Origin: Lysobacteraceae bacterium UBA6001 | Lineage (GTDB): Bacteria > Pseudomonadota > Gammaproteobacteria > Xanthomonadales > Xanthomonadaceae | Direction: 5' to 3' | DNA: 24,123 nucleotides | NCBI GenBank assembly: GCA_002429615.1 | Contig: DJAN01000090.1 | Coordinates: 1 to 24,123, forward strand | Shown: piece by piece, positions 2,591 through 17,275 of the stretch | Layout of the letters: every line of letters begins with the position of its first letter | How positions within the stretch are numbered: position 1 is the stretch's first letter | Made by a program: the position numbers and the translations under genes | Notes under the pieces: model-generated | Seen by the model: only the letters and a program-made list of their open reading frames with translations | Told to the model about the DNA's origin: nothing | Databases searched by the model: none

Positions 2591-3001
2591 ATGCCCATCG
2601 CCCGAAAGCCTGCCGTACCGCGTGCCGTGTCGAAAAAGGCCGGCGCGCCCAAGCCTGCGCCGATGCCGGCCGACGAAGCGCGGCTGCGCATCCTGCGCGC
2701 GATCCGCGCCATCCCCGCCGGGCAGGTGGCCGGCTACGGCGAAGTGGCGGCCCGGGCCGGGCTGCCGGGGCGCGCACGGCTGGTCGCGCGCGTGCTCGGC
2801 GGCAACGAGGATCCCGACCTGCCATGGCACCGCGTGCTGCGCTCGGACGGGCGCATCGCCATGCCGGAGGGCTCGCGTGGCTGGCGCGAGCAGAGCCAGC
2901 GGCTGCGCGCGGAGGGCGTGCGGGTCGAACGCGGCCGCGTGAAGCGCGCCCCACCGGAACAGGGCCTGGACGCCGCCCTGTGGGGGCCGCGCCGGGGCTA
3001 G
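2591..3001 (+). CDS. Alkyltransferase-like (ATL) DNA-damage recognition protein
   Basis: The 136-residue protein consists of a basic Ala/Pro-rich leader of about 25 residues and then the DNA-binding domain of O6-alkylguanine-DNA alkyltransferases. The helix region IPAGQVAGYGEVAARAGL (residues 41-58) holds the Tyr of the recognition helix. The active-site motif is PWHR (78-81) where true transferases have PCHR, so the alkyl-accepting Cys is Trp. This is the hallmark of ATL proteins, which flip and bind O6-alkylguanine and hand the lesion to nucleotide excision repair instead of repairing it. The position that in MGMT carries the intercalating Arg finger appears to be Gly (LGGNEDPDLPWHR). It lies 49 bases after gor on the same strand. 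Met25 is a possible alternative start that would remove the basic leader. Confidence 0.87.
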   Translation: MPIARKPAVPRAVSKKAGAPKPAPMPADEARLRILRAIRAIPAGQVAGYGEVAARAGLPGRARLVARVLGGNEDPDLPWHRVLRSDGRIAMPEGSRGWREQSQRLRAEGVRVERGRVKRAPPEQGLDAALWGPRRG

Positions 3002-3036
3002 CGGCTATGATGGGGGCGGTTCCCACGGATGCTTCC

Positions 3037-3702
3037 ATGTTCCCGCGCCTGCCGACTGTTACCAAGGCCCTGTTGATCGCCAATGTCCTGATGTTCCTGC
3101 TGCAGCAGGTACTGGGAGATGCGCTGGCGCCGCTGATGCTGTGGCCGGTGAGCGAAGGCGGCTTCGATCCGTTCTCGCCCGGGCAGAACTTCCAGATCTG
3201 GCAGCTGCTGACCTACGGGTTCCTGCACGGCGGCTTGTGGCACCTGTTCTTCAACATGCTCGCGCTCTTCATGTTCGGCGCGCCGCTGGAGCAGACCTGG
3301 GGCGAGAAGCGCTTTCTGACCTATTACCTGGTGTGCACGGTCGGCGCCGGCCTGTGCCAGCTGCTGGTGGGCTGGTGGACGGTGTCGCACGGCGGCGAGA
3401 TGTATCCGACGGTGGGTGCGTCGGGCGCGATCTACGGCCTGCTGCTGGCCTACGCGATGCTGTTCCCGAACCAGCAGATCATGCTGCTGTTCCCGCCGAT
3501 CCCGATGAAGGCGCGCACGTTCGTGATCGTGTTCGGTGCGATCGAGCTGTTGGCCGGGTTCAACGGCTGGCAGCCGGGCGTGGCGCACTTCGCGCACCTG
3601 GGCGGCATGCTGTTCGGCTGGCTGCTGATCCGTTACTGGCGTGGGCATCCGCCGTTTGGTCGGCGCGGGCCGAAGCCGCCGCATCTGCGCCGGGTGAAGT
3701 AG
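3037..3702 (+). CDS. Rhomboid-family intramembrane serine protease (compact form)
   Basis: The 221-residue polytopic membrane protein has the full rhomboid catalytic signature. His69 and Asn73 (HLFFNM) are in the second membrane segment, Ser129 is in GASG (127-130) in the fourth, and His187 is in AHFAHLGG in the sixth, so the Ser/His dyad is intact. The loop after the first segment contains a Trp-rich patch (IWQLLTYGFLHGGLW). Rhomboids cleave single-pass membrane proteins within the bilayer; the substrate is unknown. A second rhomboid with a very different architecture lies at 22.6 kb. I chose the ATG that gives MFPRLPTVTKALL, since the membrane segment begins soon after. Upstream in-frame ATGs at 3007 and 3010 would add about ten residues. 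A strong bidirectional terminator follows the stop. Confidence 0.9.
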   Translation: MFPRLPTVTKALLIANVLMFLLQQVLGDALAPLMLWPVSEGGFDPFSPGQNFQIWQLLTYGFLHGGLWHLFFNMLALFMFGAPLEQTWGEKRFLTYYLVCTVGAGLCQLLVGWWTVSHGGEMYPTVGASGAIYGLLLAYAMLFPNQQIMLLFPPIPMKARTFVIVFGAIELLAGFNGWQPGVAHFAHLGGMLFGWLLIRYWRGHPPFGRRGPKPPHLRRVK

Positions 3703-3774: not shown

Positions 3775-5796
3775 TCAGCGCCAGATTTTGAGCTGCTCCG
3801 CATCGGTGCGCTGCATCGGCTGGCCGGCCTTGCACTGGAACGTGGCACCGAACTCCGGCAGGTTCGACAGCGGGCCGTTGACGCGCCACTGGCCCGGCGC
3901 ACGGATATCCGTGGCCGCGCGCTGCACCGCCTCGTTCGGCGAGACCTGCTGCGCCCACAGCCCCGCCCACGCGTTGAAGAACGTCTGGCGGCTGGCCACC
4001 GGCGCGTTCGGCTGCGCGGCATTGAACGCCTGCCATGCCAGTTCCACGCCCACCTGGTCGGCGAGGTTGGATTCAGCGGTCAGGGTGCCGTTGACCTTGG
4101 TGTTCGGCACGCCCGGGTACGGATAGGCGTTGTACTGCATCGCGATGCGGTTGGTCAGCTCGGTCCAGGCGGTCTTCTCGGCCGGGCTCCACCAGCTGCG
4201 CAGCTGGCCCTGCGAATCGACCAGCGCGCCCTTGGCGTCGATGGCGCGGGTGATCTCGCGCGCCACCAGCGCGCCGTAGGCGCCGTACTGCGCGGCCGGC
4301 TCGCCGTTGCCGAACACCGGCGGCTGCAGCACCGCGGCGGTGACGATCAGGCGGTTCTGCGCGATGTCATACGCCAGCGCCGGCTGCTGCGGCAGCACGT
4401 CCCAGCGGCGGTCGGCGTTGCCCTTGCCGATGCGCTTCATCTCCTCGCGGTGGCGCCAGGTCGAGGCGATCAGCATGTTGCCGCCGAAGCTGCCGCGGCC
4501 CATCGGCTGCACGCTGTAGTCCAGGTCGCGGCGCGGCGCGCCGATCTCGATCTTCATCGCCTGCAGCTTGGCCTTGGCTTCATCGACCACCGCGCCGTTG
4601 CCCCAGCCGGTCCGGGCGAGTGCGGCGACCTGCGCCTCGCGGATCTGGTCGGCGATCACCGCGGCCTGGCGGCGGGTGTCGGCGGCGAGGTAGCGCTCGA
4701 CGTACTCGTGGCCGAGCATCGGGCCGGCGGCGACGTTGATCGCGTCCAGCACCTGCTGCCAGCGCGGCGGCGGCAGGGTTTCGCCACGCAGCAGGCGGCC
4801 GCGGAAACCGCCTTCGGCGTCACGGAAGCTCTTGGACAGATACGGCGCCATCGAATCGCCCACGCGCCAGCGCAGGTAGGCCTTCCACTGCTCCGGCTTG
4901 AGGCTGGCGACCATCGCGTCGAGCTGCTTGAAGTAGCCCGGATCGGCCATCGACACCAGGTCGTCGCTGACGCCCTGCGCCTTGAGGAAATCGCCCAGCT
5001 GCAGGTTGCGGTACTGCTTGGTGACGTCCTTGACCGCGATCGGCGCGTAGTTGTTGAACGGGTTGTTGACGTCGGCGACTGGCTTGGCCGCCTTGGCCAG
5101 CAGGGTCTCGATCTGGATGACCGACACGGTATCGGCGTCCAGCTGCGCGGCCGGGGTGCCGGTGAGGGCGAGGACCTGCTTGACGTAGGCGCGATAGCGG
5201 CCCATCAGCGCCACGGTGTCGGCGTCGGTGCGGGTATAGAAGGCCGGATCCGGCAGGCCCATGCCGCCCTGCATGAAGTAGCCGATGTGACGGTCCAGCG
5301 CCTTCAGGTCCACGTCCGGGCTGAAGTTGAACGCCACCGGGATGCCGACCTGGTGCAGCGCGGCGATCGAGGCCGGCACGTCCTTGGCCTTCTTGATCGC
5401 GTCGATGCGCGAGAGCAGCGGGGCGATCGGCTGCGAGCCGTCCTTCTCCACCGCCGCCTCATCCAGGCCACTGGCCCAGAAGTCGCCAAGCAGCTTCTGC
5501 ACGTTGTTCTGCGGGGACTTCATCGCGGTGTCGAGCAGGTCGCGCTGCTGCTGCTGGGCACGCTCGGCCAGCTGGCCCAGCGCGGTGGTCGCGCCGCTCT
5601 GCGGTACCGGGTTGGCCTTCAGCCAGGCGGCGTTGGCGGTGGCATAGAAGTCGCTGCAGGCCGGGGCCACGGCGGGCGCCTTGGCGCTGCTCTTCTTCTT
5701 CGGCGCCGCATCGGCATGCGGGGCGGCAATCACGGAAGCCAGGGCCAGGGACAGGGCGAGCGGGCGGAGAAGGGGCATTCGAGGGAATCCAGCCAT
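3775..5796 (-). CDS. M13 (neprilysin/PepO-like) family protein, predicted catalytically dead
   Basis: This protein of about 673 residues has a signal peptide (hydrophobic LRPLALSLALASVIAAPHADA, likely cut near residue 30) and a full-length M13 fold including the C-terminal CKAGQPM...IW tail. In active M13 enzymes zinc is held by HExxH and a Glu 59 residues later. Here the motif is REITR (513-517) and the Glu position is Ser576, exactly 59 residues beyond Arg517; the partner Asp580 is kept. The late catalytic His (TD-x-H-AP in the neighbouring paralogue) is Arg632, and the substrate-loop NAYY is LAYD. The frame is open throughout, so this looks like a maintained pseudoenzyme, probably periplasmic, and not a decaying gene. 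A start six codons downstream (5778) gives a shorter signal peptide and is equally possible. A weak -10-like TAAACT lies just upstream on the minus strand. Confidence 0.9.
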   Translation of the reverse strand: MAGFPRMPLLRPLALSLALASVIAAPHADAAPKKKSSAKAPAVAPACSDFYATANAAWLKANPVPQSGATTALGQLAERAQQQQRDLLDTAMKSPQNNVQKLLGDFWASGLDEAAVEKDGSQPIAPLLSRIDAIKKAKDVPASIAALHQVGIPVAFNFSPDVDLKALDRHIGYFMQGGMGLPDPAFYTRTDADTVALMGRYRAYVKQVLALTGTPAAQLDADTVSVIQIETLLAKAAKPVADVNNPFNNYAPIAVKDVTKQYRNLQLGDFLKAQGVSDDLVSMADPGYFKQLDAMVASLKPEQWKAYLRWRVGDSMAPYLSKSFRDAEGGFRGRLLRGETLPPPRWQQVLDAINVAAGPMLGHEYVERYLAADTRRQAAVIADQIREAQVAALARTGWGNGAVVDEAKAKLQAMKIEIGAPRRDLDYSVQPMGRGSFGGNMLIASTWRHREEMKRIGKGNADRRWDVLPQQPALAYDIAQNRLIVTAAVLQPPVFGNGEPAAQYGAYGALVAREITRAIDAKGALVDSQGQLRSWWSPAEKTAWTELTNRIAMQYNAYPYPGVPNTKVNGTLTAESNLADQVGVELAWQAFNAAQPNAPVASRQTFFNAWAGLWAQQVSPNEAVQRAATDIRAPGQWRVNGPLSNLPEFGATFQCKAGQPMQRTDAEQLKIWR

Positions 5797-5907
5797 GAGG
5801 AGTGGCCGGAGTTTAGCGGAGGAGGGGGGCGGGTGGGTGTGGGGGTGTTGGCTGTTTTGGGGTTCCATGGGACTGCCCGCTAGGTGTGTGGGTGGGTCGC
5901 GCGGCGC

Positions 5908-6017
5908 CCGGGGGGAATGCCGTGGCGGGGGACGGCCGAAAGCGGCCATCCATGGCCTCGGGCCTCGATCGGCGGCATCCATGCCGCCTCACGCCCCCGC
6001 CACGGCATTCCCCCCGG
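5908..6017 (+). repeat. Long palindromic intergenic repeat, copy 1
   Basis: Two perfect 23-bp arms (5908-5930 and 5995-6017, core AATGCCGTGGCGGGG and its complement) enclose a 64-base interior. Inside are two small hairpins, GGCCAT-CC-ATGGCC (5944-5957) and GGCGGCAT-CC-ATGCCGCC (5971-5988). The interior matches copy 2 at roughly nine of ten positions when copy 2 is read on the other strand. Confidence 0.85.
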
Positions 6018-6043
6018 TCACCCCCAACCCTCCCCACCACCGA

Positions 6044-6101
6044 TCGAAAAGCAAAAGCCACCCGCAGGTGTGGAGTGGGAAAAGCAAAAGAAAAAAGCAA
6101 A
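6044..6101. other. A-rich AAAAGCAAAAG-type spacer between the palindromic repeats
   Basis: Purine-rich blocks AAAAGCAAAAG and AAAAGCAAAAGAAAAAAGC stand out from the GC-rich surroundings, and a similar block (AGAAGCAAAAAGAAAGG) occurs near 6327-6343. No coding potential is seen anywhere between the two M13 genes (5797-6395). That stretch holds only the two palindromes, these A-rich spacers and the terminator of the upstream M13 gene. Confidence 0.5.
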
Positions 6102-6118
6102 GCAGGGGCCGTCGCGGC

Positions 6119-6305
6119 GGGGCGCTTTTGATCTTCGTTCCGCCGGATCCGTGAACTATCGGGTGGTCGGGCGGGAGACCGCAGCGGGGGCGTGTGGCGG
6201 CATGGATGCCGCCACTCGAGCCTCGAGGCCATGGATGGCCGCTTTCGGGCGTGCCCCGCTGCGGTCTCCCGCCCGGCCACCGCGCGATAGCCACGAAAGC
6301 GCCCC
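6119..6305 (-). repeat. Long palindromic intergenic repeat, copy 2 (inverted relative to copy 1)
   Basis: The element is a nested inverted repeat. The outer arms are GGGGCGCTTT / AAAGCGCCCC (6119-6128 and 6296-6305), then CTATCG / CGATAG (6156-6161 and 6285-6290). The main arm of 22 bp is CGGGCGGGAGACCGCAGCGGGG (6168-6189) paired with 6254-6275, and it extends a few bases outward through a G-T wobble. The interior repeats the GGCGGCAT/GGCCAT double hairpin of copy 1 on the opposite strand. The main arms differ in sequence from those of copy 1, yet each set is self-complementary. Confidence 0.85.
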
Positions 6306-6338
6306 GCATCAGGTCGCAGAAAAGCCAGAAGCAAAAAG

Positions 6339-6365
6339 AAAGGCCCGGGAGAATCCCGGGCCTTT
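6339..6365 (-). terminator. Intrinsic terminator of the upstream M13 lipoprotein gene
   Basis: A 12-bp perfect stem (AAAGGCCCGGGA / TCCCGGGCCTTT) with a three-base loop is followed on the minus strand by CTTTTTGCTT. It lies about 30 bases past the TAA of the M13 peptidase gene. Confidence 0.85.
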
Positions 6366-6395
6366 CAACAACAACTTGAACAACAAGTCAGGCGA

Positions 6396-8510
6396 TTACC
6401 AGATCACAACCTGCTTGTCGCCAGCACGCACCATCGGCTGGCCGGCCTTGCACTCGAACGCGGCGGCGAAGGCCGGCATGTTCGACGGCGCGCCGATCGC
6501 ACGGAAGTTCGCCGGGGCGTGCGGGTCGGTCTTCAGGCGCACGGCCAGCTCGTCCGGGGTGAAGTTGCGACGCCACACCGTGGCCCAGTTGAGGAAGAAG
6601 CGCTGGTCGCGGGTCAGGCCGTCCGTCTTCGGGTCGTCCTGGCCGGCGGTCGCCGCCTTCATCGCGTCATAGGCGGTGTTCAGGCCACCCAGGTCGGCGA
6701 TGTTCTCGCCCAGGGTGAGGTCACCCTTCACGTCGCCGGCCGGGGTCTTGTATTCGCTGAACTGATTGACCAGCTTGGCGGTACGGCTCTTGAAGGCGTC
6801 GAAGTCAGCCTGGGTCCACCAGCCCGGATCCTGGATGAAGTTGCCATCCGGCCCGAAACGGCTGCCCTGGTCATCGTAACCGTGGGTCATCTCGTGGCCG
6901 ATCACCGCACCGATGCCGCCGTAGTTCATTTCCGCCGGCGCGTTCGGATCGAAGAACGGCGGCTGCAGGATCGCCGCCGGGAACACGATCTCGTTCTGCA
7001 GCGGATTGTAGTACGCGTTGATGGTCTGCGGGCTCATGCCCCACTCGGTCTTGTCCACCGGCTTGCCGATCTTGGACAGGTTCCACTTGTAGTTGAACTC
7101 GTTCGCCGCCTCGATGTTGCCCAGGTAGCTGTCACGGCTGGTCGCCAGGCCTTCCCACGAACGCCACTTGTCCGGGTAGCCGATCTTCGGGGTGAAGCTG
7201 TTCCACTTGGCGATGGCCTTTTCCTTGGTCTCCGGGCTCATCCAGTCCAGCTTCTCGATGCGGGCCTTCAGCGCGGTGCGCAGGTTGCCGACGAGTTCTT
7301 CCATCTTGGCCTTGGAGTCGGCCGGGAACGCGACCTGCACGTACATCTGGCCCAGCGCTTCGCCGGTCTGGCTGTTGATCGCGGCCAGCACGCGCTTCCA
7401 GCGCGGCTTCATTTCCTTCTGCCCGCGCATGGTCTGGTTGTAGAACGCGAAGTTCTCTTCCACGAACGGCTGGCTCAGGAACGGCGAGGCGCTGTCGACG
7501 GTGTGGAAGCGCAGGTAGGCACGCCAGATCGCCGGGTCGGTGTCGGCGATCATCTTGCTCACTTCCTCGTGGAAGGCCGGGATCGCCAGCGAGAACATCT
7601 GCGGCACTTCGACGCCCTGCGACTTGAAGAACTCCGTCCACGACCAGTTCGGGGTCAGCTTGTCGGCGTCGGCCGGGCTGATCGGGTTGTAGAACAGCGA
7701 GGTATCACGCGACAGCTCGGTGCTGGTCTTGGAGACCTTGGCCAGGCGGGTTTCGAAATCGACGACCTGCTTGGCCTGCGCGGCGGCGTCAGCATCGGCC
7801 ACGCCCGACAGCTTCAGCACGTTGGCGACGTGCTGCTGGTAGGCGTCCAGCTTGGCCTTGTTGCTGGCCTTGGTGTAGTACTCCGGATCCGGCAGGCCCA
7901 GGCCGCCCTGCGCGGCGTAGGCGATATTCATGCTGGAGTTCTTGAAGTCGGCCTCGGCGCCGAACGAGAACAGCTCGTTCTCGCCCTTGGCGGCGCTGGT
8001 ACGCAGGTAGTCGACCAGCTTGGCCTGGTCGGTCACGCCGTCGATGGCGGCCAGGGTCGGCTTCAGCGGCTCGATGCCCTGGGCGTTGACCTTGGCTTCG
8101 TCCATGCCGGTGGCCCAGATGTCACCGACCAGCTTCTCCACGCCCTTGGCATCCTTCGCCGCGGCGGCCTGCTCCACGAGCTGGCGCTGCACGGCGTTGG
8201 AACGCTCGTCGAGCATCTCGAACGCGCCCCAGCTGGTGCGGTCGCCCGGCACCGGGTTGGCGGCCAGGAACTTGGCGTTGGCGTAGGCGTTGAGATCGGT
8301 ACAGGCGTTGGCGTTCGGGTCCAGGTCGCTGGCCTGGAACTGGTTGAACGGCGGCAGCTTGGATTCGTCGAGGGTGAGCTTCGGCGCGGTGGAGGCGGCG
8401 GTCTCGGCGGCCGGCGCGGCGGGCGCGGTGTCTTCGGACTTCTTGCAGCCGGCCAGCGCGGCGGCCACGGCCAGGGAAAGGGTGAGCAGATGCGGTTTAC
8501 GGAGGGTCAC
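6396..8510 (-). CDS. M13 family zinc metallopeptidase (PepO/neprilysin-like) lipoprotein
   Basis: The product of 704 residues begins with a lipoprotein signal ending in the lipobox LAGC, with Cys22 as the lipidated residue and Lys at +2, consistent with the outer membrane facing the periplasm. The complete M13 active site is present: the substrate loop INAYYNP, the zinc motif HEMTH (539-543), GENIAD with Glu602 exactly 59 residues after His543, the late catalytic His664 in TDPHAPANFR, and the C-terminal CKAGQPM...VVIW. It should degrade peptides in the cell envelope. I chose the GTG start because GGAG lies seven bases upstream and the lipoprotein signal starts there; a longer frame to 8567 adds an Arg-rich stretch with no such support. 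It is the upstream, active paralogue of the zinc-less M13 protein that follows on the same strand. Confidence 0.93.
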   Translation of the reverse strand: MTLRKPHLLTLSLAVAAALAGCKKSEDTAPAAPAAETAASTAPKLTLDESKLPPFNQFQASDLDPNANACTDLNAYANAKFLAANPVPGDRTSWGAFEMLDERSNAVQRQLVEQAAAAKDAKGVEKLVGDIWATGMDEAKVNAQGIEPLKPTLAAIDGVTDQAKLVDYLRTSAAKGENELFSFGAEADFKNSSMNIAYAAQGGLGLPDPEYYTKASNKAKLDAYQQHVANVLKLSGVADADAAAQAKQVVDFETRLAKVSKTSTELSRDTSLFYNPISPADADKLTPNWSWTEFFKSQGVEVPQMFSLAIPAFHEEVSKMIADTDPAIWRAYLRFHTVDSASPFLSQPFVEENFAFYNQTMRGQKEMKPRWKRVLAAINSQTGEALGQMYVQVAFPADSKAKMEELVGNLRTALKARIEKLDWMSPETKEKAIAKWNSFTPKIGYPDKWRSWEGLATSRDSYLGNIEAANEFNYKWNLSKIGKPVDKTEWGMSPQTINAYYNPLQNEIVFPAAILQPPFFDPNAPAEMNYGGIGAVIGHEMTHGYDDQGSRFGPDGNFIQDPGWWTQADFDAFKSRTAKLVNQFSEYKTPAGDVKGDLTLGENIADLGGLNTAYDAMKAATAGQDDPKTDGLTRDQRFFLNWATVWRRNFTPDELAVRLKTDPHAPANFRAIGAPSNMPAFAAAFECKAGQPMVRAGDKQVVIW

Positions 8511-8565
8511 GGTCAGGCTCCAGGCGCGACATGGACGGGTGCCCCGGTTCCGGGGCGGAACGCGC

Positions 8566-8595
8566 ACTCTAAACCTTGCGGCCGATCGCAGTCAG
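8566..8595 (-). promoter_or_regulatory. Candidate sigma-70 promoter of the M13 lipoprotein gene
   Basis: On the minus strand CTGACT (8595-8590) and TAGAGT (8571-8566) are 18 bases apart, about 55 bases before the GTG start. A small GCCCCGG-TT-CCGGGGC hairpin (8541-8556) lies in the leader. Confidence 0.4.
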
Positions 8596-11113: not shown

Positions 11114-11136
11114 CCCTCGGAGTTTCTGGAGTGCGG

Positions 11137-12720
11137 ATGGGGATGGTGGAAGACGACGCGCTGGCGCTATACCGCAGGGCGGTAGGCGCGCTCAATGCCC
11201 GCCGCTGGCATGAAGCCGGCCGGATTGCCGAAGACCTGCTGCGTCGCCTGCCGCGGCATCCCGGCCTGCATTTCGTGGCGGCCGTGGCCGCCTATGAAGT
11301 CCGCGCGCTGGATCTGGCGTTGCGCCACATGCATGACGCCTGCACGCTTCAGCCGGACAACGCCGAGTACGCCGCGCAGATGGCGCGGATGCTCGCCAGC
11401 GCGCAGCGGATGGACGAGGCGCTGGCCCAGGCCGGGCGCGCGGTGGCGCTGGGCGTGGACGAACCGGTGGCGCTGGCCATGGTGGGCGTGGTCTTCGCGC
11501 GTGCCAATGAACATGGACAGGCGCTGCGAGCGTTCCAGCGCGCGGTGGAGAAAGCGCCGGATCGCCCGGGATTGCGCTACAACCTGGGCAGCTGCCTTTC
11601 CTTCTTTGGTCGCATGGAAGCGGCAGAGCAGGAATACCGCGCCGCATTGGCGCTGAATCCGCGCTATTGGCGCGTGTACCTGTCGCTGGCGCACCTGCGC
11701 CGGTGGCGTGTCGAAGACAACGAGCTGGATCTGCTGCGGCGGACAGTGGCCGATGCGGGCGACGATCCGGAGGCGCGCCTCTATCTCAATTTGGCGCTGG
11801 CCAAACAGTACGAGGACGTGGGCGATCACCGTGCCGCCTTCGCCTGCTACGTCGCCGGCAAGGAAGGGCTCAAGCGCGCGCGCGGCTACACCTCCGCGCG
11901 CGACCAGGCGATGTTCGATGCCGTGCGGCGCGCATTTCCGGCGGACTTCGCCGCTGCGCCCGGGCACGCCGATGCCGCGCCGATCTTCGTGGTCGGCATG
12001 CCGCGCTCGGGCACCACGCTGGTGGAGCGGGTGCTGTCCAGCCATCCGCAGGTCACCTCGGCGGGAGAGCTGGACTGCATGCCGCTGGCGGTCAAGCAGT
12101 TGGCCGCCACCGCGACGCCGGACGTGGTGGATGCCGCCACGCTGGCGCATGCCGATCTCGACTGGGCCGCACTGGGCCATCGCTACCTGGACCTGTCGCG
12201 ATCGGCAGCCGGATCGACCCCGCGCTTCGTCGACAAGCTGCCGCACAACTTCCTGTACATCGGCCACATCGCGCGCGCGCTGCCCAACGCGAAGATCATC
12301 TGCCTGCGCCGCGACCCGATGGATACCTGCCTGGGCAATTTCCGCCAGTTGTTCGAGCTGGCCACGCCCAACTATGACTACTCGTTCGACCTGCTGGATA
12401 TTGGCCGCTACTACCAGATGTTCGACGGACTGATGGCGCACTGGCAATCGCGCCTGCCGGGTCGCATCCACGAACTGCGCTACGAGGACCTGGTGCATGA
12501 CCAGGAAGCGGCCACGCGGGATCTGCTCGCGTTCTGCGATCTGCCGTGGGATGCGGCGTGCCTGGCGTTTGACCGCAACGACGCCCCGGTGGCCACGGCC
12601 AGCGTGGCGCAGGTACGCGAGCCGCTGACGTCGCGTTACATCGGCCGCTGGCGGCGCTATGGCGCCGACGTGGACGCGCTCGCCGCCATGCTGGGCGTCG
12701 AGGCCACGACGCCGGGCTGA
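11137..12720 (+). CDS. TPR-containing sulfotransferase, copy 1
   Basis: The 527-residue protein has two parts. Residues 1 to about 230 are helical TPR-like repeats (for example ALRAFQRAVEKAPDRPGLRYNLGSCL and its flanking repeats). The rest is a PAPS-dependent sulfotransferase domain related to tyrosylprotein sulfotransferases. The 5'-phosphosulfate loop is VGMPRSGTT (286-294), followed by SSHPQVTSAGEL with the candidate catalytic Glu. The core FVDKLPHNFLYIGHI leads into the 3'-phosphate motif RRDPMDTCLGNFRQ. That motif normally has a Ser eight residues after the Arg; here it is Gly400. No signal peptide is seen, so it is probably cytoplasmic. The start is the ATG with GGAG five bases upstream; GTG at 11131 is an alternative. 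A paralogue follows after 49 bases. Confidence 0.88.
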   Translation: MGMVEDDALALYRRAVGALNARRWHEAGRIAEDLLRRLPRHPGLHFVAAVAAYEVRALDLALRHMHDACTLQPDNAEYAAQMARMLASAQRMDEALAQAGRAVALGVDEPVALAMVGVVFARANEHGQALRAFQRAVEKAPDRPGLRYNLGSCLSFFGRMEAAEQEYRAALALNPRYWRVYLSLAHLRRWRVEDNELDLLRRTVADAGDDPEARLYLNLALAKQYEDVGDHRAAFACYVAGKEGLKRARGYTSARDQAMFDAVRRAFPADFAAAPGHADAAPIFVVGMPRSGTTLVERVLSSHPQVTSAGELDCMPLAVKQLAATATPDVVDAATLAHADLDWAALGHRYLDLSRSAAGSTPRFVDKLPHNFLYIGHIARALPNAKIICLRRDPMDTCLGNFRQLFELATPNYDYSFDLLDIGRYYQMFDGLMAHWQSRLPGRIHELRYEDLVHDQEAATRDLLAFCDLPWDAACLAFDRNDAPVATASVAQVREPLTSRYIGRWRRYGADVDALAAMLGVEATTPG

Positions 12721-12769
12721 GCGGCCGCCGCGCATTGCCCGCGCGTGCGATCATGCCGGCGAACCCTCG

Positions 12770-14374
12770 ATGCTGCATGCAATGAACGATCCGACTGCCG
12801 CGCCGGCGGCACAACGCCTGTACGCCGACGCCATTGCCGCGCTCAACCGGGCCGAATGGCCGACCGCGGGAAACATCGCACTCGACATGCTGCGCCGTTT
12901 CGGCGAACACCCCGGCGTGCATTTCATTGCCGGCGTGGCCGCGCTGGAATTACGGCGCCTGCCGCAGGCGCTTGGCCATCTCCAGCGCGCCGTGGCGATG
13001 AACGGGCAGCGTGCCGATTATCTCGTCTATCTGGCGAAAGGCCTGGCGCAATCGGGTGACTTCCAGGCCGCCGCGCGCGCGGCCGACCGGGCGATGGCGA
13101 TGCAGCCGGAGGATCCGATGCTGCTGGATACGCTGGGGGTGGTCTATACCGAAGCCGGGCTGCACGCCGAAGCGGCCGCCGCCTTCGCCGCGGTCGTGTC
13201 GCGTGCGCCGGATCGGGCCGGCAGTCGTTTCAACCACGCCACCGCGCTGCTGTATGCCGGTCAGCTGGATCAGGCGGAGAAGGAATACGAGGCGTGCCTG
13301 GCCCGCGATGCGCGCCAGTGGAAGGCCTACACGGCGTTGTCGAGCCTGCGCCGCCAGCGTCCGGAATCCAACCACATCGCCGTGCTGGAAGCGGCGCTGC
13401 ACACGTATGGCGAGGACCAGGACGCACGCCTGTACCTGCATCTCGCGTTGGCCAAGGAACACGAGGACCTGGGAGATGCCGGGCGCGCCTTCGCGCACTA
13501 CACGCAAGGCAAGGCGGCCGGTGGCCAAGGTCGGCCGTATTCGCGCCAGGCCGAGGAAGCGTTGTTCGCGTCGATTGCCGGTGCATTCCCCGGCCCGCTC
13601 GGTGGCCGCCCGGGCCATGCCAGTGAGGAGCCTGTGTTCGTCGTCGGCATGCCGCGCTCCGGCACCACGCTGGTGGACCGCATCCTGGGCTCGCACCCGC
13701 AGGTGACCTCGGCGGGCGAACTCCACCACCTGCCGATCGCGGTCAAGCGCGCGTCCGGCAGCCAGACCCGGATGCCGCTGGATCCCGACACGCTGGCGCG
13801 CAGCGCGGCGATCGACTGGCAGGCGCTGGGCCGTGCGTATGTCGAATCCACCCGCCCGATCACCGGCAAGACGCCGCGCTTCGTCGACAAGCTGCCGCAC
13901 AACTTCCTCTACATCGGGCACATCCTGCATGCGTTGCCGAACGCGCGCGTGGTGCTGATGCGGCGGCATCCGCTGGACAGCTGCCTGAGCAACTTCCGCC
14001 AGCTGTTCGCCCTGGGCTCGCCGTTCACCCGCTATTCGTTCGACCTGCTCGATACCGCGCATTACTACGTGCAGTTCGACCGCCTGATGAAGCATTGGAT
14101 GCAGGTGTTTCCCGGCCGCATCCTGGCGCTGTCCTATGAGTCGCTGGTGCTCTCGCAGGAGGCGACGACGCGCGCGCTGCTGGCGCACTGCGGGCTGGCA
14201 TGGGACGAGGCGTGCCTGCGTTTCGAGCAGAACCAGGCGCCGACCGCGACCGCCAGCGTGGTGCAGGTGCGTGAGCCGATGCAGCGCGGCTACATGGCGC
14301 GTTGGCGCCGCTACGAGGCCGAGTTGGCGCCGCTGCGCGAATACCTCCGCGAGCACGGCATCGACGCCGATTGA
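12770..14374 (+). CDS. TPR-containing sulfotransferase, copy 2
   Basis: This 534-residue protein is colinear with copy 1: N-terminal TPR-like repeats to about residue 235, then a sulfotransferase domain with VGMPRSGTT (292-300), SHPQVTSAGELHHLP, TPRFVDKLPHNFLYIGHI and the 3'-phosphate motif RRHPLDSCLSNFRQ. Here the Ser eight residues after Arg399 is present (Ser407), but the Asp normally following the Arg pair is His400. The C-terminal signature PTATASVVQVREP is shared with copy 1. Only 49 bases separate the genes and I see no terminator between them, so they are probably co-transcribed and arose by duplication. The start could also be the ATG four codons downstream (12782). A bidirectional terminator separates it from the convergent TonB-dependent receptor gene. 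Confidence 0.88.
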   Translation: MLHAMNDPTAAPAAQRLYADAIAALNRAEWPTAGNIALDMLRRFGEHPGVHFIAGVAALELRRLPQALGHLQRAVAMNGQRADYLVYLAKGLAQSGDFQAAARAADRAMAMQPEDPMLLDTLGVVYTEAGLHAEAAAAFAAVVSRAPDRAGSRFNHATALLYAGQLDQAEKEYEACLARDARQWKAYTALSSLRRQRPESNHIAVLEAALHTYGEDQDARLYLHLALAKEHEDLGDAGRAFAHYTQGKAAGGQGRPYSRQAEEALFASIAGAFPGPLGGRPGHASEEPVFVVGMPRSGTTLVDRILGSHPQVTSAGELHHLPIAVKRASGSQTRMPLDPDTLARSAAIDWQALGRAYVESTRPITGKTPRFVDKLPHNFLYIGHILHALPNARVVLMRRHPLDSCLSNFRQLFALGSPFTRYSFDLLDTAHYYVQFDRLMKHWMQVFPGRILALSYESLVLSQEATTRALLAHCGLAWDEACLRFEQNQAPTATASVVQVREPMQRGYMARWRRYEAELAPLREYLREHGIDAD

Positions 14375-14387
14375 GTCGCCGCAAAAG

Positions 14388-14413
14388 AAAAACCCCGCCG
14401 AGGCGGGGTTTTT
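14388..14413. terminator. Bidirectional intrinsic terminator
   Basis: AAAAACCCCGCC and GGCGGGGTTTTT form a hairpin with a tight loop and A/T tracts on both sides. It lies between the stop of sulfotransferase copy 2 and the stop of the convergent receptor gene. Confidence 0.9.
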
Positions 14414-14431
14414 CCTTGCAGCTCGTGGCGA

Positions 14432-17275
14432 TTACTTGGCGCCGAAGTCGTACTTCACTTCCGCGTAGATCGCACGGCCATACGCGCTGTACACGTAGTT
14501 GTTGTACGGCACGGTGGAGGTGCCCGGGTAGTTGTGGGCCTGGTCGTCCGGCAGCTTGTTGCCGATGTTGGTGGCCTGCACCGAGAAGCGCAGGTTCTCC
14601 AGGGCCTGGTAGTCCAAGCCCAGGTTGAAGGTCGTCCAGGTTCCCCACTTGCCCGCGCTGGCACCGGCGCTGTTGGTGTAGTCGTAGGTGTCGTTGAGGT
14701 AGGCCAGGTAGTTCGGCGTGGAGCCGATCATGTTGGCGTACAGCGTGGTCGTCCAGCGACCGACTTCCCAACCGATGGCGCCGTCGGCCTTCCACTTCGG
14801 ACCGGCGTCATACACCCAGTTGGCCGCCGGGGAGGCGATCAGGTCGATGTAATCCTGGGTCGGATCGGTCTTCAGGTCGTGCTTGAGCGTGTTGGTGTAG
14901 TTGGCCGAGAAGTTCAGCCGGCCCCACGCACCGATTTCCTGGCTGTAGCGGCCCGACACCGTCAACACTTCCAGCTTCTGGCGGGCGATGTTCACCTTCG
15001 GGGTGAAGACCGACTGCAGGATGTTGGTGTTGGGGTCGCGCACGATCCACGCATCGACGTTGTCGCAGGAGGTGAAGCCCGGGCCGGCTTCGCCACGGCG
15101 GCAGTAGTACTCCTGCTGCAGGATCTGGTCGCCGCTCAGCTGCGCGACCTCGTCCTTGATGTCCCACTTGAAGTAGTCGACGCTCAGCGAGGCGTTGGCC
15201 ACCGGCGCCCACACCGCACCGACGTTCCAGGTGTTGGCCTTGATCGGCTTCAGGTCGGTGTTGCCGGCCTGGGTGCCGTAGTACTGCACGCTGTCGTAAC
15301 GGCAGTCGGAGGTGTCCGCCGGCGCGTAGCCGTCCAGGCCGCAGCGGTAGTAGTCGGTGTCACGCGTGTAGTAGCCGCTCAGGCCCTGGAACAGGTCCGA
15401 CAGGGTCGGTGCCTTGAACGCGGTGCCGTACTTGCCACGGAACATCAGGGTGTCGATCGGGCGGAATTCCAGGCCCGCGCTCCAGGTCGGCTTGTCGACG
15501 GTCTCGCCGTAGGCGTCGAAGGCGTCGTAACGGCCGGACAGGGTCGCGGTCAGCATCGACACCACCGGCAGGCGCAGTTCGGCCATCGCGGCGTACTTGG
15601 TGCGGTGGCCGGCGCCGCCGACGTCGGTCTGGCCCCAGATCGCGCCGTCCATGATGCCGGGGATCGGCTGGTAGTCCCAACCTTCGTTGCCGGCTTCCAC
15701 CGCGACCGCGAGGCCGGCCGAGCCGCCCGGCAGCGAGAACAGGTCGGCGTTGGTCAGCTGGGCACGGAACAGGTCATCCCAGGTCTTGGCCTTGGCGGTG
15801 CCGTAGCCGGTGAAGCTGGCGAAGTCCTGCGGCGAGATCACCGAATAGAACGCGTCGTAGTTCGGGTGGAAGACCGGGTAGTTGCCGAAGTACGGATCCC
15901 AGCCATCCTGCGGGCCGAGCACGTGCTCGTCGAAGTAGTCGTTGATCGCGTCGTTCCAGCGCACGAAGCGGCGCATGTCCAGCTTGCTTTCGTTGCGGGT
16001 GAAGGCGACGTCGTAGTCCCACGACTGGCCGAAGTGGCCGCTGCCACCCAGGGTGATGGTGTAGGACTCGTTGGTGTCCTTGTCCATGATGTCGCGATAG
16101 CCGCCGCCACCGATGTCCTCGGGGCTGAAGGCGCGCTGCAGGTTCAGCAGGGCATCGTAGTCCGGGTCGTAGTAATAGCCGTACTTGGAGCCCGAACCCC
16201 ACCACATGTAGCTGCTGCCGGCGGCGTAGGTCGACTCGTCGTGGTTGTAGAGCACCTCGCCGTACAGCTCGAGGTTGTCGTTCACCGCGAAGGTGGTCCG
16301 GTTGTACAGCTGGAAGCTGTCCTTGCCGTTGCGGATGGTCTTGTAGCCCGGCGAGTAGAACGAACCGCAGTAGTCGCCGTAGCCGGCGCGGCTGCGCAGG
16401 CCCTCGGTGCCACCGAACTGCGAGGTCACGTTCGAGCAGTCGATGCCGGTCGGCAGCTGGTAGCCGTAGTTGTCCAGGCCGTCGACGCCGATGTTCTTGT
16501 AGCCGTAGACCAGGTAGTCGCGCGAAGCCACCGGCGCGGAATAGCCGTTCTGGTTGACCGAATCGGTGATGTCGCGCTGGTAGCCCCAGATCGGGTTGCG
16601 GGTTTCGTACTGCACCGAGGTCACGGTGTTCAGGCGGTCGTCGAACGCGCTGAAGCCGTTGGTCAGGCTGAAGCGGAAGCTGTTGCCGCCGCCTTCGGTG
16701 TAGGTGCCGCCGCGCACGCGCACGGTGGTGCCTTCGTAGTTCTTCTTCAGGATGAAGTTGACCACGCCGGCCAGCGCGTCGGAGCCGTACAGCGAGGAGG
16801 AACCACCCGGCAGGATTTCGATGCGCTCCACGGCGTCGATCGGAATGCCGCTGATGTTGTTGAACACGTCGCTGCCGTTGTACAGCGCCGGATAGTTCGA
16901 CATCGGGCGGCCGTTGATCAGGTACTTGGTGTACCCCGGATCCAGGCCGAACATGCTGACCGCTTCGGCGCCCTGGGTGAAGGAGGCGGAGGTTTCCGCG
17001 CCCTGCACGCCGCCGCTGGCGAAGCTGGAGGCCTTGAGGACATCGGCCACGCTGGTGAAGCCGCGGGTGTGGATGTCTTCGGCGGTGATGACGGTGACCG
17101 GGGTGACGGTCTCGATCTCGGTCTGCGGAATCAGCGAGCCGGTCACGGTGACGCGGTCGAGTTCCTTGGGCTGTTCCTGGGCCAGGGCGGTGCCGGCGGC
17201 CGGCAGGACGATGGCGGCGAACACCGCTGCGGTCAGACGGTGGCGCTTGAGGCGGGAAGCTTTGCTGGACGACAT
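14432..17275 (-). CDS. TonB-dependent outer-membrane receptor
   Basis: This 947-residue protein has a basic n-region, a hydrophobic stretch and a likely cleavage after GTALA (near residue 32). A TonB-box-like segment ELDRVTVTG follows, then a plug domain (about 50-170) with PVTVITAEDI, YLINGRPM and the typical VERIEILPGGSSSLYGSDALAGVVNFILKK-type end, and a long beta-barrel rich in Tyr, Asp, Gly and Asn. It should import a scarce large ligand (siderophore, sugar, peptide or nucleotide) across the outer membrane; the ligand cannot be read from sequence. Six Cys occur as three close pairs (280/303, 645/658, 725/737), suggesting disulfides in surface loops. The chain ends YDFGAK, so the last residue is Lys and not the usual aromatic. 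Upstream lie a CRP-type site and a palindromic operator. It is convergent with the sulfotransferases. Confidence 0.95.
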   Translation of the reverse strand: MSSSKASRLKRHRLTAAVFAAIVLPAAGTALAQEQPKELDRVTVTGSLIPQTEIETVTPVTVITAEDIHTRGFTSVADVLKASSFASGGVQGAETSASFTQGAEAVSMFGLDPGYTKYLINGRPMSNYPALYNGSDVFNNISGIPIDAVERIEILPGGSSSLYGSDALAGVVNFILKKNYEGTTVRVRGGTYTEGGGNSFRFSLTNGFSAFDDRLNTVTSVQYETRNPIWGYQRDITDSVNQNGYSAPVASRDYLVYGYKNIGVDGLDNYGYQLPTGIDCSNVTSQFGGTEGLRSRAGYGDYCGSFYSPGYKTIRNGKDSFQLYNRTTFAVNDNLELYGEVLYNHDESTYAAGSSYMWWGSGSKYGYYYDPDYDALLNLQRAFSPEDIGGGGYRDIMDKDTNESYTITLGGSGHFGQSWDYDVAFTRNESKLDMRRFVRWNDAINDYFDEHVLGPQDGWDPYFGNYPVFHPNYDAFYSVISPQDFASFTGYGTAKAKTWDDLFRAQLTNADLFSLPGGSAGLAVAVEAGNEGWDYQPIPGIMDGAIWGQTDVGGAGHRTKYAAMAELRLPVVSMLTATLSGRYDAFDAYGETVDKPTWSAGLEFRPIDTLMFRGKYGTAFKAPTLSDLFQGLSGYYTRDTDYYRCGLDGYAPADTSDCRYDSVQYYGTQAGNTDLKPIKANTWNVGAVWAPVANASLSVDYFKWDIKDEVAQLSGDQILQQEYYCRRGEAGPGFTSCDNVDAWIVRDPNTNILQSVFTPKVNIARQKLEVLTVSGRYSQEIGAWGRLNFSANYTNTLKHDLKTDPTQDYIDLIASPAANWVYDAGPKWKADGAIGWEVGRWTTTLYANMIGSTPNYLAYLNDTYDYTNSAGASAGKWGTWTTFNLGLDYQALENLRFSVQATNIGNKLPDDQAHNYPGTSTVPYNNYVYSAYGRAIYAEVKYDFGAK

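Follow-up and report, generated by a model that had tools for sequence, protein, structure and literature searches.

Repeated erosion of the zinc site in a clade of neprilysin-like proteins of the Lysobacteraceae: a putative family of bacterial M13 pseudopeptidases

Two M13-family genes stand next to each other on the same strand of the window, by which we mean the whole 24,123-nucleotide stretch of contig DJAN01000090.1 from Lysobacteraceae bacterium UBA6001, and they raise the question of what selection retains in an M13 protein that has lost the residues needed for catalysis. One gene encodes an intact peptidase; the other encodes a full-length homologue (hereafter the window protein), which a first-pass annotation made from the letters alone had described as a pseudopeptidase. 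The window protein almost certainly lacks zinc-dependent M13 catalysis, and we are equally confident that it has a selected function. Alignment of its relatives indicates that the Arg/Arg/Ser/Arg set at its former catalytic positions represents the final stage of a more general, repeated erosion of the zinc site within one clade.

BLASTP aligns the window protein with its neighbor at 34% identity over 645 columns, nearly the whole mature length, and both M13 Pfam domains are matched well over cut-off (PF05649, 281.7 bits; PF01431, 137 bits), which bears out a full-length M13 protein in the frame 3775-5796. The changes listed in the first-pass annotation are all recovered in this alignment: HEMTH has become REITR, the Glu ligand is Ser576 at the correct 59-residue spacing, the late His is Arg632, and the NAYY loop is gone, its counterpart reading ALAY. 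Likewise, the motif Glu and the late Asp are retained as claimed (Glu514 and Asp580), and Arg638 is kept as well, so that four of the five catalytic residues are lost. Among the features of an active M13 peptidase, the protein lacks HExxH, the Glu ligand, NA(F/Y)Y and the late His, and retains the N- and C-terminal domains, the fold and the equivalents of neprilysin Asp650 and Arg717. The numbering given earlier for the neighbor (539, 602 and 664) is right if translation starts at Val20, but not in the full 723-aa open reading frame, where the HEMTH His, the Glu ligand and the late His are residues 558, 621 and 683.

To follow these positions beyond the window we used an alignment of 179 family and 177 canonical rows, thinned to 142 and 31; rows shorter than 450 aa, identical rows and near-identical rows of the same signature were removed before counting, and the highly decayed L201 and L202, together with L205, are not among the 142 family rows. 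A well-supported branch sets the family apart from the other rows (support of 99 in FastTree and, with 63 rows, 100 in IQ-TREE). All five catalytic positions (the His, Glu and His of HExxH, the Glu ligand and the late His) are kept in 27 of the 142 rows, the others having lost one (19 rows), two (68), three (18), four (7) or five (3) of them; by position, the first His is lost in 29 rows, the Glu in 19, the second His in 85, the Glu ligand in 44 and the late His in 75. If regain is disallowed, the complete set was lost 15 times on the full FastTree tree and 8 times once branches with support below 80 (or below 95) are collapsed. At least two of the three zinc ligands are gone in 36 rows, a state that arose on 16 branches, or on 15 with branches below 95 collapsed. 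In the thinned canonical set 26 of 31 rows are complete, three are gapped and two (L198 and L199) are truly changed. The latter belong to a separate M13 lineage (L197, L198 and L199, from genomes G036, G040 and G088) that keeps the NAYY Asn and reads HELMR in two of its three members; in one of these two the Glu ligand is Ser. This is an additional case in which zinc ligands were lost independently.

Within the family the site is broken in many ways. Four of the deepest branches of the FastTree tree differ in this respect (QQxxH; HQxxY/N with HAxxA; NQxxH; HExxR), the HExxR branch (L189) being of unsure placement as it falls deeper inside the clade in IQ-TREE. Most Stenotrophomonas and many Xanthomonas rows have HExxR; they retain the Glu ligand and show Arg, Leu, Met or His at the late His position. 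Another Xanthomonas group has HExxG. In two genomes of another genus (L201:6140-8128 and L202:3424-5340) the HExxH region has collapsed (QQM or QQI, with AQNQAD), although the frames still span 639 and 663 codons. The exact Arg/Arg/Ser/Arg set is found in 8 of the 122 rows of the protein set, these being the window protein and its nearest relatives P0001-P0007; P0008 is intermediate, with HEMTR and Thr at the Glu-ligand position, and none of the 120 best-listed relatives keeps both His residues of HExxH. The expectation that this set would be conserved thus holds among the nearest relatives but not as a family rule, the set being a late step of one small group. Zinc-complete relatives occur in the same clade and in the same gene neighborhood. 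Orthologues with an intact HExxH at this locus, which the annotation had named as a sign of strain-specific loss, therefore do exist, yet the loss is not strain-specific and the ratio of nonsynonymous to synonymous substitution rates (dN/dS) is not neutral.

As judged from the alignment, the family-wide trait is the loss of the NAYY Asn rather than the loss of zinc. This residue, whose neprilysin equivalent Asn542 is described as substrate-coordinating (PMC2259306), is present in just one of the 142 family rows as against all 31 canonical rows, and the zinc-complete rows also lack it, save at most one. Asp580 and Arg638, in contrast, are found in 142 of 142 rows; their neprilysin counterparts Asp650 and Arg717 are reported to form a salt bridge, with Arg717 also bonding inhibitor backbone carbonyls (PMC7822871). 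As the Asn loss is common to the family, catalysis was probably abolished or changed before the zinc site began to drift.

The claim that selection holds the fold, with dN/dS well below 1, stands: counted by NG86, dN/dS of the window gene is 0.087 to S. panacihumi (L005) and 0.110 to Stenotrophomonas sp. HITSZ_GD (L006). The neighboring gene gives 0.207 for L006, and the L005 contig ends before the neighbor is measurable. Among 20 hand-picked pairs, some of them from one genome, the 14 zinc-broken ones range from 0.085 to 0.402 and the six zinc-complete ones from 0.064 to 0.346; in the 15 pairs with both genes comparable, the pseudopeptidase has the lower dN/dS in 11 and the higher in 4. In the set of comparisons that includes L005 and L006, more distant pairs reach 0.59, where dS is poorly estimated. 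The 113 listed orthologue matches include one internal stop (G012) and one truncation by a contig end (G080).

A comparison of 61 thinned zinc-broken rows with 60 canonical orthologues suggests where this constraint now lies. Mean entropy is 1.12 in the zinc-broken rows and 0.80 in the canonical rows overall, 1.16 versus 0.33 in the active-site helix and 1.44 versus 0.46 in the ExxxD helix, whereas the order is reversed in residues 430-470 (0.28 versus 0.68). No other 41-residue segment has so low an entropy (0.51 in the next one that does not overlap it), and the block shows no excess synonymous constraint once matched by amino acid. It is also largely conserved in zinc-complete members, and less so in the deep branches, so that the shared function seems to be independent of zinc. 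The 46 family-specific residues have a mean conservation of 0.981 in the zinc-complete core and 0.989 in the zinc-broken core, which falls to 0.609 for the deep branches and to 0.121 for canonical rows, figures to be read with the fact that their selection itself favors core rows. In the groove, Trp614 and Arg638 are kept in all 61 zinc-broken rows, Leu510 in 58 and Val511 in 57.

Retention of the M13 fold is further supported by an AlphaFold2 model of the window protein (predicted local distance difference test score, pLDDT, 87.3; predicted template modeling score, pTM, 0.86), which matches 19 PDB chains at E of 0.001 or below. These comprise TfPepO, PgPepO, L. rhamnosus PepO, Zmp1, neprilysin, ECE-1 and the Haemonchus complex 6row, chain A of which is named a putative zinc metallopeptidase. 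The PepO-type peptidases (TfPepO 9eyg, PgPepO 9fma, Zmp1 6xly) share the predicted fold with TM-scores of 0.75-0.86 by query length; their entries are named zinc peptidases, whereas the window protein is devoid of a zinc site. Zmp1 in its open form (6xly) gives the lowest root mean square deviation, 2.8 Å, a value obtained without a control model and not used as evidence.

The frame that ends at 3775 on the minus strand is open as far back as 5982. The closest protein, P0001, has 667 aa and the N-termini of the relatives begin at the equivalent of window Met7, for which reason 3775-5778 is the likely coding sequence. With the start thus corrected, the signal peptide noted in the first-pass annotation can still be read (Table 1); a hydrophobic N-terminal stretch is present in 192 of 194 rows, and the lipobox pattern of 155 of the 166 canonical N-termini is absent from the signal of the window pseudopeptidase, which is predicted to be exported.

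Table 1. Coordinates in the window of the two M13 genes, of the altered and retained positions of the window protein, and of the conserved neighbor
Feature	Position	Strand	Remarks
M13 pseudopeptidase coding sequence	3775..5796	-	673 aa counted from ATG at 5796; Met7 (5778) likely true start, giving 667 aa
Signal peptide, read from sequence	5707..5778	-	MPLLRPLALSLALASVIAAPHADA, then A-P-K-K-K; no lipobox
Residues 430-470, most conserved 41-residue block of zinc-broken rows	4387..4509	-	QPMGRGSFGGNMLIASTWRHREEMKRIGKGNADRRWDVLPQ
ALAYD (473-477) in place of the NAYY substrate strand	4366..4380	-	residue 473 aligns with the NAYY Asn
Former HExxH, now REITR (513-517)	4246..4260	-	aligned with HEMTH of the neighbor
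Former GENIAD, now ESNLAD (575-580)	4057..4074	-	Ser576 at third zinc ligand position; Asp580 kept
Arg632 replacing the transition-state (late) His	3901..3903	-	alignment to the neighbor
Arg638, equivalent of neprilysin Arg717	3883..3885	-	present in 142/142 family rows
Rhomboid-family gene	2824..3702	+	convergent with the pseudopeptidase gene; conserved neighbor
Intact M13 peptidase (HEMTH, GENIAD, NAYY)	6396..8567	-	signal of lipoprotein type (LAGC); Val20 (8510) likely true start

The genome has four M13 matches, two of which fall inside the window. Of the 151 loci whose flank is long enough, 141 have a canonical M13 gene upstream in the same orientation. Downstream, 164 of 191 loci have a convergent rhomboid gene; some genomes are represented twice in these counts. 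The gap between the two M13 genes has a median of 167 bp over 137 loci and measures 600 bp in the window. Just past the stop codon of the gene for the active M13 enzyme, at 6338-6366, there is a perfect 13-nt hairpin followed by a T-rich run on the minus strand, likely an intrinsic terminator that separates this gene from the pseudopeptidase. The same intergenic region carries, at 5888-6290, an imperfect 127-nt inverted repeat (arms 5897-6023 and 6161-6287, 82% complementary), whose 39 matches in the genome (self-matches and both-strand pairs included) point to a dispersed element resembling a repetitive extragenic palindrome or a miniature inverted-repeat transposable element.

The protein search returned 1544 matches, and among the best 120 the close relatives span Stenotrophomonas and Xanthomonas. 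When named genomes were scanned, the 80 top-ranking of 126 loci included S. panacihumi (97% identity), Xanthomonas (about 73-81%) and Pseudoxanthomonas (66-71%). By counts taken by eye from match listings, an orthologue is present in 113 of 149 sampled genomes of the Lysobacteraceae, the window's family: 116 gave a best match clearly above the canonical M13 level, and G036, G040 and G088 are excluded as the separate lineage described above. At least two further genomes (G076 and G103) hold a highly decayed orthologue beside canonical copies. An order-wide sample of 200 genomes, 36 of them Lysobacteraceae, yielded among the matches listed one member in the other 164, which is 59% identical and comes from a bin of incomplete coverage (G200, completeness 77%). 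L046, a contig with the title Bacillus subtilis SK7B5, carries a Stenotrophomonas-type member at 73% identity, probably through assembly contamination. At G011:C20:31256-33193 the M13 matches come as several overlapping pieces, like a decaying copy next to an intact one.

M13 pseudopeptidases are already known from insects, and the bacterial clade would add a variant of that kind; we found no bacterial M13 pseudopeptidase among the titles and abstract openings listed by searches of the open-access literature with capped result lists. In Drosophila 21 Nepl proteins are predicted to be inactive (PMC8223033), and insect M13 non-peptidases are reported to have been conserved for 35 million years (PMC2259306). 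In the text of a 2024 review of metallopeptidase pseudoenzymes M13 is named three times, with the Drosophila pseudopeptidase Goe as the described example (PMC11266112). The window protein shares with these insect proteins the M13 fold, the loss of catalytic residues and conservation under selection. Its nearest parallel is Nepl15, which is described as secreted, conserved and predicted inactive, with peptide sequestering as its proposed role: both have two zinc ligands replaced by Arg, both have lost the late His and Asn542, and both keep Asp590, Asp650 and Arg717 (PMC7822871). Nepl15 is, however, an insect protein, and its catalytic Glu is Gln where the window protein has Glu. Goe is similarly an M13 protein altered at key positions, for which ligand trapping has been suggested, but it is a type II membrane protein with an EAxxD motif that acts in epidermal growth factor signaling (PMC11266112).

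The loss of the zinc residues and the repeated decay of the site, while the remaining protein was kept, suggest a role in binding rather than cutting. Our preferred reading, which we hold with about even confidence, is that of a secreted or periplasmic M13 pseudopeptidase whose two-lobed chamber has been kept and whose hydrolysis has been lost, with retention for binding; that peptide or ligand binding is the mechanism is a slightly more tentative proposal. The substrate-orienting NAYY Asn may have been lost near the base of the clade, after which the zinc site would have ceased to matter and its residues would have been lost repeatedly. On the window's branch the second His and the late His probably gave way to Arg earliest, followed by the loss of the Glu ligand (Thr in P0008, Ser in the window) and the replacement of the first His by Arg. 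Function would now be centered on the block 430-470 together with what remains of the groove (Leu510, Val511, Trp614 and Asp580-Arg638). Most likely, the protein would capture or shield stretches of peptide in the envelope compartment that it would share with the active M13 lipoprotein. It is conceivable, if rather less probable, that the whole clade is a bacterial pseudo-neprilysin family, presumably of independent origin from insect Nepl, in which the Asn loss produced a non-cutting peptide-holding chamber before the radiation, function shifted to the 41-residue block, and the zinc site decayed in 8-15 lineages (with at least two ligands lost on 15-16 branches), the remainder of the protein being strongly constrained.

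Several observations weigh against the preferred reading. Plain parsimony with regain needs only 6 changes between complete and broken states within the clade, or 8 with ungapped canonical rows; with 27 rows that have all five residues and 19 that have lost one, part of the clade may still be catalytic; the zinc-broken set is slightly more diverse (mean identity 0.61 versus 0.69), which inflates its entropies; and the positions that we take to be those of neprilysin Ile558 and Phe563 are changed.

The first-pass annotation had also offered a regulatory partner of the active enzyme, and a regulatory or structural role of this kind, like that of the inactive subunit in M16B pairs of the mitochondrial processing peptidase (MPP) type, is the chief rival, though an unlikely one. 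In MPP and its prokaryotic homologues an active protein cooperates with a ligand-less one, and a prokaryotic pair is encoded by a two-gene operon (PMC12731061, PMC11266112); in MPP it is the alpha subunit that is ligand-less (PMC12731061). M16B belongs to a different family and clan, but the side-by-side arrangement of genes for active and inactive homologues recurs in the 141 loci with the conserved tandem, and both proteins are predicted to be exported. Yet the active orthologue persists without the pseudopeptidase in G083 (one contig, 100% complete, 68% identity) and in G108, G004 and G056 (99-100% complete), which disfavors an obligate pair; in G132 the two genes are far apart, with the pseudopeptidase at 1,053 kb and the best neighbor orthologue at 1,824 kb; and in the window the terminator-like hairpin and about 600 bp intervene.

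A binding or chaperone role unrelated to groove peptides, such as an envelope-assembly contact through the block 430-470, would suit the strong conservation of that block and the relaxed active-site helices, but we consider it more doubtful still, as Trp614, Arg638, Leu510 and Val511 are nearly invariant in zinc-broken rows. That the protein remains a hydrolase through another metal site or mechanism is very improbable: the 27 relatives with the full catalytic set speak for it, as do His148, His449 and several Asp/Glu residues conserved to at least 98% in the 134-row core clade, but the window protein has lost all three zinc ligands (both His and the Glu), together with the late His and the Asn of NAYY, and other members show many different letters at the catalytic positions. 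Neutral decay of a dead gene copy might account for the diversity of zinc-site substitutions and for the 33 of 149 family genomes in which, decayed copies aside, no orthologue was found; however, it can practically be dismissed given the near absence of interrupted frames among the listed orthologues and the dN/dS of zinc-broken pairs, which falls within the range of the active neighbor.

With an intact paralogue at its side, the clade displays the zinc site in grades from complete to fully collapsed, a series in which the order and cost of converting an enzyme into a binder can be tested. The Asp650 and Arg717 equivalents shared with Nepl15 may point to the needs of a non-cutting M13 chamber. 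Among the 120 listed relatives, the source records of many Xanthomonas and Stenotrophomonas proteins give the name 'M13 family metallopeptidase', and since none of the 120 has both His residues of HExxH, misannotation is likely to be widespread.

Elsewhere in the window, 11131-17275 holds two adjoining TPR-sulfotransferase genes at 11131-14374; after them, at 14435-17275 and on the opposite strand, comes a gene for a TonB-dependent receptor.
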